Below the pieces are notes generated by a model, which did no database searches, was not told the origin of the DNA, and saw nothing but the letters and a program-made list of their open reading frames with translations. Shown one piece after another: positions 17,784 to 21,844 of a DNA stretch of 64,000 bases (position 1 is the stretch's first letter; each line of letters opens with the position of its first letter). The stretch lies in contig NZ_AP028634.1 in NCBI RefSeq assembly GCF_033097485.1, positions 1,851,126 through 1,915,125 on the forward strand. Reading direction: 5' to 3'. This stretch comes from Pyrofollis japonicus (GTDB lineage Archaea; Thermoproteota; Thermoprotei_A; Sulfolobales; Pyrodictiaceae). Both the position numbers and the translations under genes were made by a program.

Positions 17784-17863
17784 CCTGTGAGGAGTTTTGG
17801 AGCCGTTTTCAGGAGTAGTAAGAAAATGTTTGCCTGTCAGGTTTCACGAATTATCCTGTCAGG
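17784..17863. repeat. Three copies of near-palindrome CCTGTSAGG
   Basis: CCTGTGAGG (17784-17792), CCTGTCAGG (17833-17841) and CCTGTCAGG (17855-17863) lie between the ABCE1 stop codon and the unknown basic-protein gene. The first and third are preceded by the same AATTAT. The 9-mer reads almost the same on both strands, as expected for a dimeric regulator site. The last copy overlaps the ABCE1 stop codon. Confidence 0.5.
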
Positions 17864-19700
17864 CTGATTGCTGCTTCTCTTCTTTCTCGCCCGGGCTTGG
17901 GATATAGTAGTATTTTCCTAGACGGCGCTGAAGCCTATCAAGATAGCTTCCTTCCTTATTTATTCTCGGCCTGCCTGTTTCTGGGTCTTTTCTAATCGTT
18001 ATTCCTATGTCTGCGAGAAACTTGTTCATTCCCTCATGCAGAGGTAGCGGTTTTAGTGCGTATCCGTGGCGTCCAGGGATCCCGGTAAACACTATCACTC
18101 GGTTAGATATGTAGTCTTGTACGGCTATGTCGTGTTCTACAACGATTGCTGCAGCCTTTCTAGCCTCTGTGAGTCGCTTGATGGCCTTTGCCACTACTAA
18201 GCGCTCTTCTACATCCAGGTAAGCCGAAGGCTCGTCGAGCAAGTATATGTCTGCCTCCTTTGCAAGGGCTACAGCTACGGCTACCTTCTGCAGTTCTCCG
18301 CCGCTTAGTTCGCCGACTTTTCTATCAAGGAACTTGTCAAGGCCTAGTCTCTTTACTATTTCAACGTTTATCCAGCTCCCCGGAGAAAGTGCTGACGGGT
18401 TTACATCGCGCAGAAGCTCTTCAACTGTCTTATCTTCGCCAAGGGTTTGTGGACTAAGTCTCTGTGGTTTATAGCTGACCTTTAGCTGTTCGCCTGGCTT
18501 GACGATTTCGCCCTCTTTTGGGTCTATTTCTCCTGCTAGCGTGCGCACAAATGTCGTCTTACCTATTGCATTTGGGCCTAGGATTCCCAGGACTTCTCCT
18601 TCGTAAAGCTCTCCGGGCTCAGCTTCAAGAGTGAATCCGTTGAGCTCAATTACTAGCCTTCTCCACTCTATGTATTTTCGTGTGCCTGGTTGTGCAACTA
18701 TCTCTGAGGGATTTATGGTGTATCGTATGGGCTCGTTTCTAATTCTCATGTTCTCTGCTGGTAGGTAGCCTTTTAGGAAATGATTTATCCCTGCGCCAAC
18801 AGCGTATGGTTTTGAAGCGATGCCGTAGACCCCGGGTTCGCCGTACATTATCACTACGTGGTCGGACAAGTAGTCAAGCATAGCTATATCGTGCTCTACT
18901 ACGACGACATAGCTTCCCTTTGGCACATAGTTCCTTATAACTCTCGCAACGTTAACCCTTTCTCTCACGTCAAGATAGCTTCCGGGCTCGTCAAATAGGT
19001 AGAGATTTGCATCCTTACTGAGAACAGCGGCTATGAGAAATCTTTGAAGCTCTCCACCGCTTAAAACTCTAATATCCTTGTCTAAAGCATTCCTGAGACC
19101 TAGTTCTTTTACGAGATCTCTCCATATTCCTCTCTCATCTGCTCGTTCGAGGAGCTGCGCAACCGTTCCCTTGACTCTGCGTGGAACAATGTCAATGTAC
19201 TGTATCTTGTGGGCAGGCCTTATCTTACCCTCCTTTAAGGCGCGGAAATAATTCTGTATTTCTGTGCCCCTAAAGCGCCTTATAATCTCATCCCATGAGG
19301 GTTCTTGCCCTGGTTGGCCTAGGTTTGGCCTAAGCTCGCCTGCTAATATCCTTAGGGCGGTTGTCTTGCCTGTACCGTTCTTACCTAGTATACCAAGAAC
19401 CTTTCCTTCTCGGGGAACCGGCAATCCATATAGCTTGAACCCGTTTACACCGTGCCGATGAATAAGCATTTTTTCAAGCTCGTCTGGCAGATTAACTATA
19501 TATATTGCTTTAAACGGGCATTTTCTCACACAGATTCCGCAACCAATACAAGTCTCTTCATAAATCACAGGCTTCTTTCTAGAAGGATCCATTTCAATAG
19601 CCTTGCCGCCGGTCTTGTTAACTGGGCAGAATACTATACACTCCTGGTTACACTTGTTCGGCTTACAAAGCTCGTAGTCGATTACAGCAACCCTTACCAA
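17859..19700 (-). CDS. abce1: ABCE1 / Rli1 ribosome-recycling ATPase
   Basis: This protein splits ribosomes into subunits after termination, using two ATPase domains and two Fe-S clusters. The 613-aa length is typical. The N-terminal ferredoxin-like domain (residues 1-75) shows the two cysteine sets CKPNKCNQECIVFCPVNK and CIGCGICVRKCPF. NBD1 has LGKNGTGKTT, LSGGELQRFLIAA and LYLFDEPGSYLD. NBD2 has LGPNAIGKTT, LSGGELQKVAVAV and IYLLDEPSAYLD. The linker has the usual conserved segments. It depends on Fe-S assembly, supplied by sufBC elsewhere in the window. Start GTG or ATG at 19700. It is transcribed alone. Confidence 0.97.
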   Translation of the reverse strand: MVRVAVIDYELCKPNKCNQECIVFCPVNKTGGKAIEMDPSRKKPVIYEETCIGCGICVRKCPFKAIYIVNLPDELEKMLIHRHGVNGFKLYGLPVPREGKVLGILGKNGTGKTTALRILAGELRPNLGQPGQEPSWDEIIRRFRGTEIQNYFRALKEGKIRPAHKIQYIDIVPRRVKGTVAQLLERADERGIWRDLVKELGLRNALDKDIRVLSGGELQRFLIAAVLSKDANLYLFDEPGSYLDVRERVNVARVIRNYVPKGSYVVVVEHDIAMLDYLSDHVVIMYGEPGVYGIASKPYAVGAGINHFLKGYLPAENMRIRNEPIRYTINPSEIVAQPGTRKYIEWRRLVIELNGFTLEAEPGELYEGEVLGILGPNAIGKTTFVRTLAGEIDPKEGEIVKPGEQLKVSYKPQRLSPQTLGEDKTVEELLRDVNPSALSPGSWINVEIVKRLGLDKFLDRKVGELSGGELQKVAVAVALAKEADIYLLDEPSAYLDVEERLVVAKAIKRLTEARKAAAIVVEHDIAVQDYISNRVIVFTGIPGRHGYALKPLPLHEGMNKFLADIGITIRKDPETGRPRINKEGSYLDRLQRRLGKYYYIPSPGEKEEKQQSA

Positions 19701-19797: not shown

Positions 19798-20043
19798 ATG
19801 TTATTAACCGCTACTGATCTAGAACAAGCGTGGATGAAGAGTGGTGACGGCACAGAGCACGAAAAATACACTTTACTGTTCAAAAACCGTGCAATGAAGA
19901 AAGCAAGGTTGGCTGAAAATTATTACCACTCCTCTTCTTCCCACTCCTCCTCTTCTTCCTCTTCCTCCCACCACTCTTCTTCTTCCTCCTCTTCTTCCCA
20001 CCATTCCTCCTCTTCTTCTAAAACAAGCCATCTCATTGTATGA
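19798..20043 (+). CDS. Possible Ser/His-repeat protein (81 aa), antisense to the Glu/Trp frame
   Basis: ATG 19798 has GGGG 4 nt upstream and an A/T-rich TTAATTC about 55 nt upstream. The first 43 residues look like an ordinary soluble peptide (TATDLEQAWMKSG, KYTLLFKNRAMKKARLAE). The rest is blocks of Ser separated by His (SSSSSSSSHH repeated), which comes from the pyrimidine strand of the 30-bp repeat. Poly-Ser is unusual for a hyperthermophile. The complementary strand encodes a Glu/Trp peptide over the same bases, and I cannot decide from sequence which is translated. Confidence 0.35.
   Translation: MLLTATDLEQAWMKSGDGTEHEKYTLLFKNRAMKKARLAENYYHSSSSHSSSSSSSSHHSSSSSSSSHHSSSSSKTSHLIV
19923..20036 (-). 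CDS. Possible 37-aa Glu/Trp-repeat microprotein
   Basis: The frame starts at ATG 20036 (GAGG 11 nt upstream) and ends at TAA 19923. After a short head (MRWLVL) the product consists only of Glu and Trp: blocks of 5, 8, 8 and 4 Glu separated by WW, WW and W, and ending in W. The pattern comes from a 30-bp tandem repeat. Both GAA and GAG are used, so it is not a simple trinucleotide expansion. It lies 146 nt downstream of the Cgi121 gene and 222 nt upstream of ABCE1, all on the same strand. If made, it would be extremely acidic and aromatic. The opposite strand has its own candidate frame. Confidence 0.4.
   Translation of the reverse strand: MRWLVLEEEEEWWEEEEEEEEWWEEEEEEEEWEEEEW
19929..20028. 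repeat. 30-bp imperfect tandem repeat, purine/pyrimidine-asymmetric tract
   Basis: On the minus strand two 30-nt units each begin TGGTGG and continue with Glu-codon purines (GAAGAAGAGGAG and variants). They are followed by a half unit TGG-(GAR)4-TGG. About 100 bp is almost all purine on one strand and pyrimidine on the other. Such tracts are prone to slippage and can form triplex DNA. Confidence 0.75.
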
Positions 20044-20182
20044 TTTCCCTCAAATCAGCTTCTTGTCCGTAATGTGGGTAACTGTGGCAGATGTTTTTAG
20101 CACTTTTCCCACATATCTCTTCTAGAGAAATAATCTACGATATAATGTAATCCGATGCAATAATGCTGGTATCGTGCTATAT

Positions 20183-20698
20183 CTAGCTAGGCTGTATTCT
20201 GTAAAGCCGCTCCTCAATAGGGTAAACCGAAATACGCGTCAAGGATAACGGGTCAGAACTCTGCGGGAACTTACACCTAATTGCCTTAAGCGTTTCTAGC
20301 ACCCTCCTCAACCTTTCAAGATTACTCGAAACAAGAATGGCAATTACCTTCTCGTTCCTTCTTGCACCACATCTTGCGGCAACCGTTCCAAGATTCTTTT
20401 CTCTGCACAACACACTTAGTGCTTCTAAGCCCTTGTGACGCGCACGCCTAAATCCATGCCTTATTAATGCATAGGCCGATATCGTTGCAGAGAAGAGTGC
20501 TTCAAGGCCATGTTTAACAGCTAAGTCATACGGTACAAACACTATCAGGTCGTAATCCTCTTTAAAAAACTGTAATGCTTTTTCAGCATGTTCATCGAAC
20601 AGTGTGCAAAGAACCGCCAAATAAATATTATTTAGACCTGGCAGGCGGATACTATAGAGCTTTCCTCGCCCTGAGTATTCTCCTGATAAACTCAACAT
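20183..20698 (-). CDS. cgi121: Cgi121-like KEOPS subunit
   Basis: KEOPS makes N6-threonylcarbamoyladenosine at tRNA position 37; Cgi121 binds the tRNA end. The 171-aa protein fits the family in the core GLEALFSATISAYALIRHG then RRARHKGLEALSVLCREKN then VAARCGARRNEKVIAILV. This matches the usual order helix, 'A-x-K-x-x-x-E-x-L' helix, and beta strand before a C-terminal helix. Identification rests on this pattern, not on a search. ATG 20698 has GGTGA just upstream; GTG 20704 is an alternative. The gene overlaps the upstream phosphoribosyltransferase by about 47 nt. The KEOPS catalytic gene kae1 begins at the right end of the window. Confidence 0.7.
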   Translation of the reverse strand: MLSLSGEYSGRGKLYSIRLPGLNNIYLAVLCTLFDEHAEKALQFFKEDYDLIVFVPYDLAVKHGLEALFSATISAYALIRHGFRRARHKGLEALSVLCREKNLGTVAARCGARRNEKVIAILVSSNLERLRRVLETLKAIRCKFPQSSDPLSLTRISVYPIEERLYRIQPS

Positions 20699-21242
20699 TG
20701 TCACCTGTTATTCTAGCAACTTCTTCAGCGCTATACCCCTTCCTAGTTATAAGTTCTTCAATAGTTTCTGCCTTGTCCCACGGGAATATAATCCAGGCAT
20801 CTGTTTCCTCAGCATAAAAATCTGGGCGATGCATAGACCATGGTTTTAGGTAAAGTGCTGCAGTCAAAATCTTCTTAGGACCGTAATGATTAAGGAAGTT
20901 TACTGCAATGTTTAGTGTTTTACCCGTATCGGCTACGTCATCTACTATTAGTACAACCTTGTCACGTATATCAACTATAAGTGGCTGCGTAACTACTGGT
21001 CTCTCAGCAGTCTCGCCGATTGAGCGATAAAACTTAACCTCAAGGGCTCCCATCTCGGCTACGCCTAAGTAGTCGGAAAGCAGTCTTGCAGGTATCCACC
21101 CTCCTCTAAGAACACCAACTATTATATCAACGTGCTTGACGCGAGTTCTTACTTCTTCAGCTATTCTTACACAGTGTTCTTCAACGTCTTTCCATGTAAT
21201 CGGCTTAAACTTAATAGGTTCAGGATGACCATATTCAACCAT
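20652..21242 (-). CDS. Type I phosphoribosyltransferase (xanthine/hypoxanthine-guanine type)
   Basis: This cytoplasmic purine-salvage-type enzyme transfers the phosphoribosyl group from PRPP to a base. The 196-aa protein shows the diagnostic PRPP loop VVLIVDDVADTGKTL, preceded by the flexible region EVKFYRSIGETAERPVV and the N-terminal VDIIVGVLRGGWIPARLLSD. The exact base cannot be read; archaeal members of this group are usually annotated as Gpt- or Hpt-like. ATG 21242 is followed by a normal start. The promoter lies in the A/T-rich 21250-21420 region (ATATTTAAAC near 21310). It is the first gene of a pair with cgi121. Confidence 0.88.
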   Translation of the reverse strand: MVEYGHPEPIKFKPITWKDVEEHCVRIAEEVRTRVKHVDIIVGVLRGGWIPARLLSDYLGVAEMGALEVKFYRSIGETAERPVVTQPLIVDIRDKVVLIVDDVADTGKTLNIAVNFLNHYGPKKILTAALYLKPWSMHRPDFYAEETDAWIIFPWDKAETIEELITRKGYSAEEVARITGDNVEFIRRILRARKAL

Positions 21243-21422: not shown

Positions 21423-21770
21423 TTACTCTTCTCCGCTTGTTCTCTTTTCCTCCTCAAGGGCTTTTGTTACAGCTTCAGTAGTTACAGCTCCCTCCTTCTG
21501 CTCTATAGGGGCTTGTGCGAGTAGTGACTCACGTATTTCTTCTGCTCTTTGTTGCTCAAGTAGCATTTGTAACCTTCCGGTTCTCTTATAGAGCCTTATA
21601 AGCCTTGTAACATAGCCAGCGATTTGGTTTCGCAGCTTCTTTGACCCTGTTTCAACGAGTCTGGCGACAACCTTCTTGTTATGCTCAAAGTCGTCAGTGA
21701 ATAGGTCTGGGTACATAGCTACTAGTCGTCTCGCCGTTCTTTTAACTAGGCCTATTCGTACTTTGCCCAA
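21423..21770 (-). CDS. rps17e: Ribosomal protein eS17 (S17e)
   Basis: Small-subunit ribosomal protein. The family core is clear: [36 protein letters not shown] and [17 protein letters not shown]. After it comes an acidic, Glu/Ala-rich tail of about 45 residues ending TSGEE, longer than the compact euryarchaeal form. TTG 21770 is chosen because the family begins with this GKVR segment and GGGGGA lies 6 nt upstream. The longer frame up to 21833 would run into the region just upstream of the divergent thermosome promoter. Transcribed divergently from the thermosome gene. Confidence 0.93.
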
Positions 21771-21844
21771 CTGGTTCCCCCGTGCTACACGACGCACTGT
21801 GGTCGGAGTTATTAATAGTGTAGGTATAGCCATTGTGAGAAAGC

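Follow-up and report, generated by a model that had tools for sequence, protein, structure and literature searches.

ABCE1 and the translational GTPases are bound by the C-terminal tail of aP1, the archaeal ribosomal stalk protein. Acidic-aromatic motifs are also found in eukaryotic factors, such as the N-terminal acidic Trp motif of eIF3j and transcription activation domains. In yeast, Lto1 is the adaptor for Rli1 (ABCE1), and its conserved C-terminal Trp binds the CIA targeting complex (PMC4523923). Clients and adaptors of that complex are recognized by a C-terminal tripeptide with a terminal Trp or Phe; a C-terminal extension abolishes the recognition in yeast, and the motif is missing from the archaeal homologues compared (PNAS 2023, PMC10623007). 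Acidic nascent chains, for their part, destabilize ribosomes in bacteria and yeast (PMC9718836).

We compared these systems with a short minus-strand ORF in a 64,000-nucleotide stretch of the Pyrofollis japonicus genome, the whole of which is called the window here. After a short head the ORF codes only for Glu and Trp, and we refer to it as E/W. It lies among the following features:

17859..19700, minus strand: ABCE1 (Rli1), the ribosome-recycling ATPase, conserved linked gene (Pfam Fer4_RLI and ABC_tran)
19882..19886, minus strand: oligo-T (T5 on the minus strand), candidate E/W terminator (sequence reading)
19923..20036, minus strand: E/W microprotein gene, 37 aa, ATG to TAA (orthologues; purifying selection)
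20047..20051, minus strand: candidate Shine-Dalgarno (SD) sequence GAGGG, 10 nt before the E/W ATG (sequence reading)
20183..20704, minus strand: Cgi121-like (KEOPS) gene directly upstream of E/W (position; congener identity)
20652..21242, minus strand: phosphoribosyltransferase, in conserved gene order (Pfam PF00156; synteny)
21423..21833, minus strand: ribosomal protein S17e, in conserved gene order (Pfam PF00833; synteny)

The ORF translates as MRWLVLEEEEEWWEEEEEEEEWWEEEEEEEEWEEEEW, followed by a TAA stop, with the layout MRWLVL-E5-WW-E8-WW-E8-W-E4-W. Our rereading agrees with the initial annotation in its minus-strand Glu blocks of 5, 8, 8 and 4 and in its mixture of GAA and GAG codons; the terminal Trp was missing from that list of blocks and is among the best conserved features of the family. 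The 30-bp tandem repeat reported there is the strongest in the window (TRF period 30, 19941-20018, 2.6 copies, score 121). The flanking genes had been named as a KEOPS subunit and ABCE1, and both names hold, ABCE1 by its Pfam domains and Cgi121 by position, congener and an equivalent gene elsewhere. The Cgi121-like copy in the window has no Pfam match; it is 39% identical to the gene of a congener, and its equivalent at another locus is PF08617 (CGI-121). The gene order in the window's family is S17e, phosphoribosyltransferase, Cgi121-like, E/W, ABCE1. No clear TATA is claimed for the E/W gene in the window, so that here it may share a transcript with the Cgi121-like gene.

Like the aP1 tail, itself an ABCE1 ligand, the E/W protein is an acidic stretch with hydrophobic residues. 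The aP1 tail, however, is part of a folded ribosomal protein and has a C-terminal hydrophobic motif, whereas E/W is free-standing and Trp-based; the 37-aa protein has neither the N-terminal dimerization domain nor the C-terminal hydrophobic motif of aP1, and the resemblance is not one of shown homology. The aP1 tail is not known to contain Trp, and the likeness to the stalk is therefore only in charge and hydrophobicity. The motifs of eIF3j and the activation domains share with E/W a Trp within acidic runs but are parts of larger proteins and lack a two-letter composition.

Searches of Pfam, NCBIfam and the PDB gave no match to the E/W protein. An HMM built from a 19-member alignment recovered only one of 15 genomes tried, most of which have known copies, so tools of this kind can hardly detect proteins with this composition. 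The silence of the homology tools is probably explained by composition filters. Because the HMM recovered so few genomes, family counts were taken from DNA patterns instead. A search of the texts of 5.4 million papers found no EEEEWWEEEE-like string, and neither ABCE1 nor this ORF appears, under the terms searched, in the text of a 2025 RNA atlas of S. acidocaldarius.

At the DNA level, 15 of 19 whole genomes of relatives gave a match. Fourteen loci were fetched; 13 are E/W tracts ending at Trp or Glu, and the one from genome G015 is a longer E-rich frame. The pattern E2-WW-E4 is found in 30 of 398 genomes of the phylum versus none with the reversed-pattern control. Among 84,980 species it is found in 76 stretches, all from archaeal records: Pyrodictium, Pyrolobus, Ignisphaera, Staphylothermus, Fervidicoccus, Zestosphaera, other Desulfurococcales, Sulfolobales, MAGs of Thermoproteota and Thermoprotei, and one Njordarchaeota MAG. 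A single-Trp pattern occurs in 105 of the 214 genomes of the order. E4-W-stop matched 152 of the 398 phylum genomes, versus about 15 with control matches, and the loci read are acidic/Trp ORFs of 20-70 aa, except for L194, L196, L285 and L287-L289, which look like chance or unresolved frames. The E2-WW-E4 and E4-W-stop counts both far exceed chance. E/W genes are present in most families of the order and in many other families of the phylum. None of the many genomes of families f14 and f50 has an E4-W-stop match, and the ABCE1 loci read in these two families (L240, L241, L244, L247, L248) have no E/W-like ORF. In viral contigs, a single match lies inside a 457-aa terminase-like frame and was taken as chance.

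Across the phylum we gathered 175 distinct relatives. Their median length is 28 aa; Glu makes up 68% of the residues and Trp 17%. The last residue is Trp in 151, Glu in 18 and Phe in five. The ORF at 19923-20036 on the minus strand is a member of this phylum-wide family, in which proteins of mostly 20-50 aa have acidic runs (Glu, some Asp) punctuated by Trp or by Phe, Leu or Ile and nearly always end in ...EEEW or ...EEEEW. It has the features by which we ourselves define the family: a length of mostly 20-50 aa, a tail with at least 60% Glu/Asp, spaced Trp or other aromatics, and a Trp at or adjoining the stop.

An SD-like motif precedes 71% of the 175 ORFs, compared with 20% of shuffled sequences. 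Upstream TATA-like elements (55% of relatives versus 15% shuffled) and a T5 within 70 nt downstream (79% versus 26%) are enriched as well, the latter at a similar rate in ABCE1-linked (78%), unlinked (82%) and divergent loci. By these signals, the typical E/W copy has the look of a small unit that is transcribed and translated on its own. We consider it almost certain that the family consists of real, translated genes, given the signals and the selection on the reading frame.

That selection was measured within the tract. We compared 31 close pairs that have their Trp residues at identical positions; of the 138 differences in the tract, 137 are synonymous, and all lie at wobble positions. In 13 disjoint close pairs there are 52 synonymous changes (GAA/GAG swaps) to one nonsynonymous change, where neutrality would give a synonymous share of 0.10-0.24 (P below 1e-30). 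With 52 of 53 tract changes being synonymous GAA/GAG swaps, the coding strand is fixed. Selection only on the Ser codons of the opposite strand is rejected (P from ~1e-4 with a transition bias of 8 to below 1e-14 with a bias of 2 or less), because Ser codons tolerate all four bases at the wobble position and would permit transversions there. In the whole family, the wobble base of GAN codons is A 1949 times, G 1541 times and T or C 146 times, and 868 of 869 TGN codons are TGG. Purifying selection acts in the E/W frame. The initial annotation had called selection on the protein plausible; the 52:1 ratio in disjoint pairs and the phylum-wide conservation now support it strongly. A repeat number and frame that change freely and run into stops had been named there as a refuting outcome; instead, repeat number varies in whole codons, in frame and with the same stop-adjacent ending.

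The initial annotation had also offered a Ser/His product from the opposite strand. The open frame is there (19798-20043, plus strand), where it mirrors the minus-strand frame, GAR being read as TCY in a shifted frame and WW as His-His; it is open because TCY and CAY share their wobble bases with GAR and TGG. The product does not hold up, as its head is not common to congeners (no ATG is found in the two read) and the wobble is limited to A/G. More broadly, the locus might code for no protein and be a low-complexity purine repeat, a Ser/His gene or an RNA element such as an SD-like sponge. GAR tracts are indeed purine-rich and SD-like, and the window does contain an open Ser/His frame. However, the synonymous bias in disjoint pairs, the wobble nearly limited to A/G, the lack of a conserved Ser/His head in congeners and an Rfam scan of the locus that returned nothing make this very improbable.

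The diverged members from family f10 also contradict a purely nucleotide-level explanation. All nine f10 ABCE1 loci carry an E/W version, for example LVFEEDWEEEFDEFEEEEDWEEEEFEEEEW, on the same strand and 29-51 nt upstream of ABCE1; in eight of the nine, GGTG is found six bases before the likely start codon. The tract in these proteins is Glu/Asp with Trp, Phe, Leu or Ile. GAT/GAC, TTT and ATA codons break the purine tract, yet the acidic and aromatic character and the SD-start-stop frame are kept, which argues for selection on the protein and not on the DNA. We therefore rejected the Ser/His gene and the DNA-only repeat on the synonymous bias, the A/G wobble and these diverged forms. In a comparison with solved structures, the ABCE1 of one f10 genome was very close to chain 6tmf, which we take to be the Sulfolobus (Saccharolobus) solfataricus ABCE1; chain 5yv5_A was also among the matches. 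As f10 includes a close relative of Saccharolobus solfataricus, the E/W gene should be testable by ordinary Sulfolobus genetics. Other families diverge in their own ways, with a form REEEEWEEEEELWEEFEEEWEEEEEW in f21 and longer forms with Phe, Leu and Ile in f6.

We then considered how E/W is placed relative to ABCE1, using 162 ORFs whose loci were found by pattern and not via ABCE1. Of the 162 loci, 104 have ABCE1 no more than 1.2 kb away, though the loci share ancestry and are not phylogenetically independent. ABCE1 is downstream on the same strand in 87, divergent in 17, elsewhere in two, and not in the fetched stretch in 56, where that stretch was often only 3 kb. E/W is 56-1030 nt upstream of ABCE1 in the same-strand loci, with a median of 144 nt. 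In several families a TFS-like zinc-ribbon gene is found between the two. In distant families ABCE1 stays while the other neighbor changes; named by eye, it is an isoaspartyl-peptidase-like gene or another gene in place of Cgi121. In Staphylothermus-type loci the E/W unit keeps its place but is inverted as a whole, and in families f21, f22, f34 and f6 the gene is away from ABCE1, adjoining the S-adenosylmethionine decarboxylase gene in f21. Part of the ABCE1 linkage within the order is inherited gene order. Gene neighborhoods suggest that E/W is probably linked to ABCE1 in function.

Inverted copies between the gene in the Cgi121 position and TFS/ABCE1 were seen at L027-L030, L034, L058, L071, L072, L091, L106, L116, L121, L122, L126 and L127. 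They are convergent with the gene in the Cgi121 position and keep their own SD and start, often with a T-run.

The short distance upstream of ABCE1 (29-51 nt in f10, a median of 144 nt in same-strand loci overall) is consistent with E/W being a cis-acting leader or attenuator, in which the acidic chain would destabilize ribosomes and its translation would report recycling capacity and set ABCE1 expression. Such destabilization is an attribute of acidic nascent chains (PMC9718836), and E/W is likewise a short ORF with acidic residues in a row close to its N-terminus. That effect, however, is in cis, on the chain being synthesized, while many E/W genes are inverted relative to ABCE1 or lie apart from it. 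A same-strand upstream position is found in the window and in 87 loci but does not hold for the family as a whole, with 17 loci divergent from ABCE1 and many unlinked; a TFS-like gene intervenes in others, and oligo-T as frequent in unlinked as in linked loci leaves no attenuator signature for ABCE1. We regard a leader role as improbable; with some copies inverted and others unlinked, E/W cannot in general be a simple cis leader of ABCE1. A cis role confined to the same-strand lineages would survive, being compatible with the present data.

E/W could instead have a function unrelated to ABCE1, as a general nucleic-acid mimic or acidic chaperone that at high temperature buffers basic proteins of chromatin, of the ribosome or with RNA-binding activity; its proximity to ABCE1 would then reflect inherited gene order. 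The extreme acidity with stacking Trp residues, the single small gene, the independent location in f21, f22, f34 and f6 and the f14 and f50 genomes without an E4-W-stop match all fit such a role. The link with ABCE1, however, outlasts changes of the other neighbor in distant families, and the small length offers little for a bulk buffer. We consider this rather unlikely. The initial annotation had proposed a role with basic proteins, as decoy or storage partner; that is possible, and the comparative data point more specifically to ABCE1.

The best explanation overall may be that the phylum-wide E/W microprotein acts in trans by binding to ABCE1 or to the ribosomal complex of ABCE1, to which we give a little less than even confidence. 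That the gene can be inverted and keep its signals intact points to a diffusible product, and the conserved proximity argues for a role with ABCE1. In the specific mode that we tentatively propose, the peptide, extended or weakly helical, would be a trans-acting, multivalent acidic-aromatic ligand, most likely of ABCE1 or the ABCE1-bound ribosomal subunit, and would bind much as the aP1 stalk tail does. Its acidic runs would dock on basic surfaces, its Trp side chains would enter hydrophobic or stacking pockets, and binding would tune the recruitment, ATPase or release of ABCE1 in ribosome recycling. Length and repeat number that vary in whole codons fit avidity and an extended multivalent peptide better than a fixed fold. 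AlphaFold modeled a single helix with a pLDDT of 90.5, which for one low-complexity sequence is driven by composition and is weak structural evidence. E/W might be viewed, again tentatively, as a trans-acting protein dedicated to ABCE1-driven ribosome recycling, as its regulator or cofactor, inherited across most of the phylum, apparently absent from f14 and f50 and overlooked because homology tools filter out such a composition.

The same partner would be engaged differently if E/W were an Fe-S adaptor, bringing an archaeal Fe-S carrier (e.g. a Cia2/MIP18-like PF01883 protein) to ABCE1 through its C-terminal acidic-Trp-COOH, as Lto1 does for Rli1 in eukaryotes. The parallel with the Lto1 C-terminal Trp and the CIA tripeptide (PMC4523923, PMC10623007) lies in the acidic-Trp terminus and in the proposed partner, and the counts agree with it, as 151 of 175 E/W proteins end in Trp and five in Phe. 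Yet Lto1 is eukaryotic and has a deca-GX3 domain, and the tripeptide, [LIM]-[DES]-[WF], begins with Leu, Ile or Met, which E/W proteins lack: the window protein ends E-E-W, with Glu at -3. Moreover, 18 of the 175 end in Glu (e.g. EEEEE* or EEEEWE*, * being the stop), although an extension abolishes recognition in yeast, and the archaeal homologues compared in PNAS 2023 are without the motif. PF01883 is present in 12 of 13 relatives searched, including all eight complete ones, but also in 13 of 14 control prokaryotes, making its presence uninformative. By analogy with yeast an adaptor role is conceivable but unlikely.

If E/W does act in trans on ABCE1, it would be an overlooked component of archaeal translation and of ABCE1-driven ribosome recycling. 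The family is a conserved one with a near-minimal alphabet, largely missed by standard homology search because of its low complexity and length under 50 aa. It bears on the minimum sequence for a functional protein, on the number of hidden genes and, via ABCE1, on ribosome recycling in archaea.

Three further loci or groups of loci stood out. The Njordarchaeota MAG B77_G9 (L114) has S17e, phosphoribosyltransferase, Cgi121-like, E/W, TFS and ABCE1, in the order found in the Thermoproteota families f11 and f12; this is either a misbinned contig or a deeper ancestry of the cluster. The shortest candidate member is a 12-aa protein, MRWFEEEWEEEW (L152, genome G460), with an SD-like GGGTG upstream, and if real is possibly among the shortest conserved proteins. 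Genome G041, from f21, has two copies (L252 and L253) of a Cys-containing protein of ~100 aa, the head of which has no Pfam or phage match. Its tail, EEEEELWEEFEEEWEQEDEWEEEWEEEEEW, is very like the free E/W microprotein of f21, suggesting that the E/W-like tail may be a portable module.
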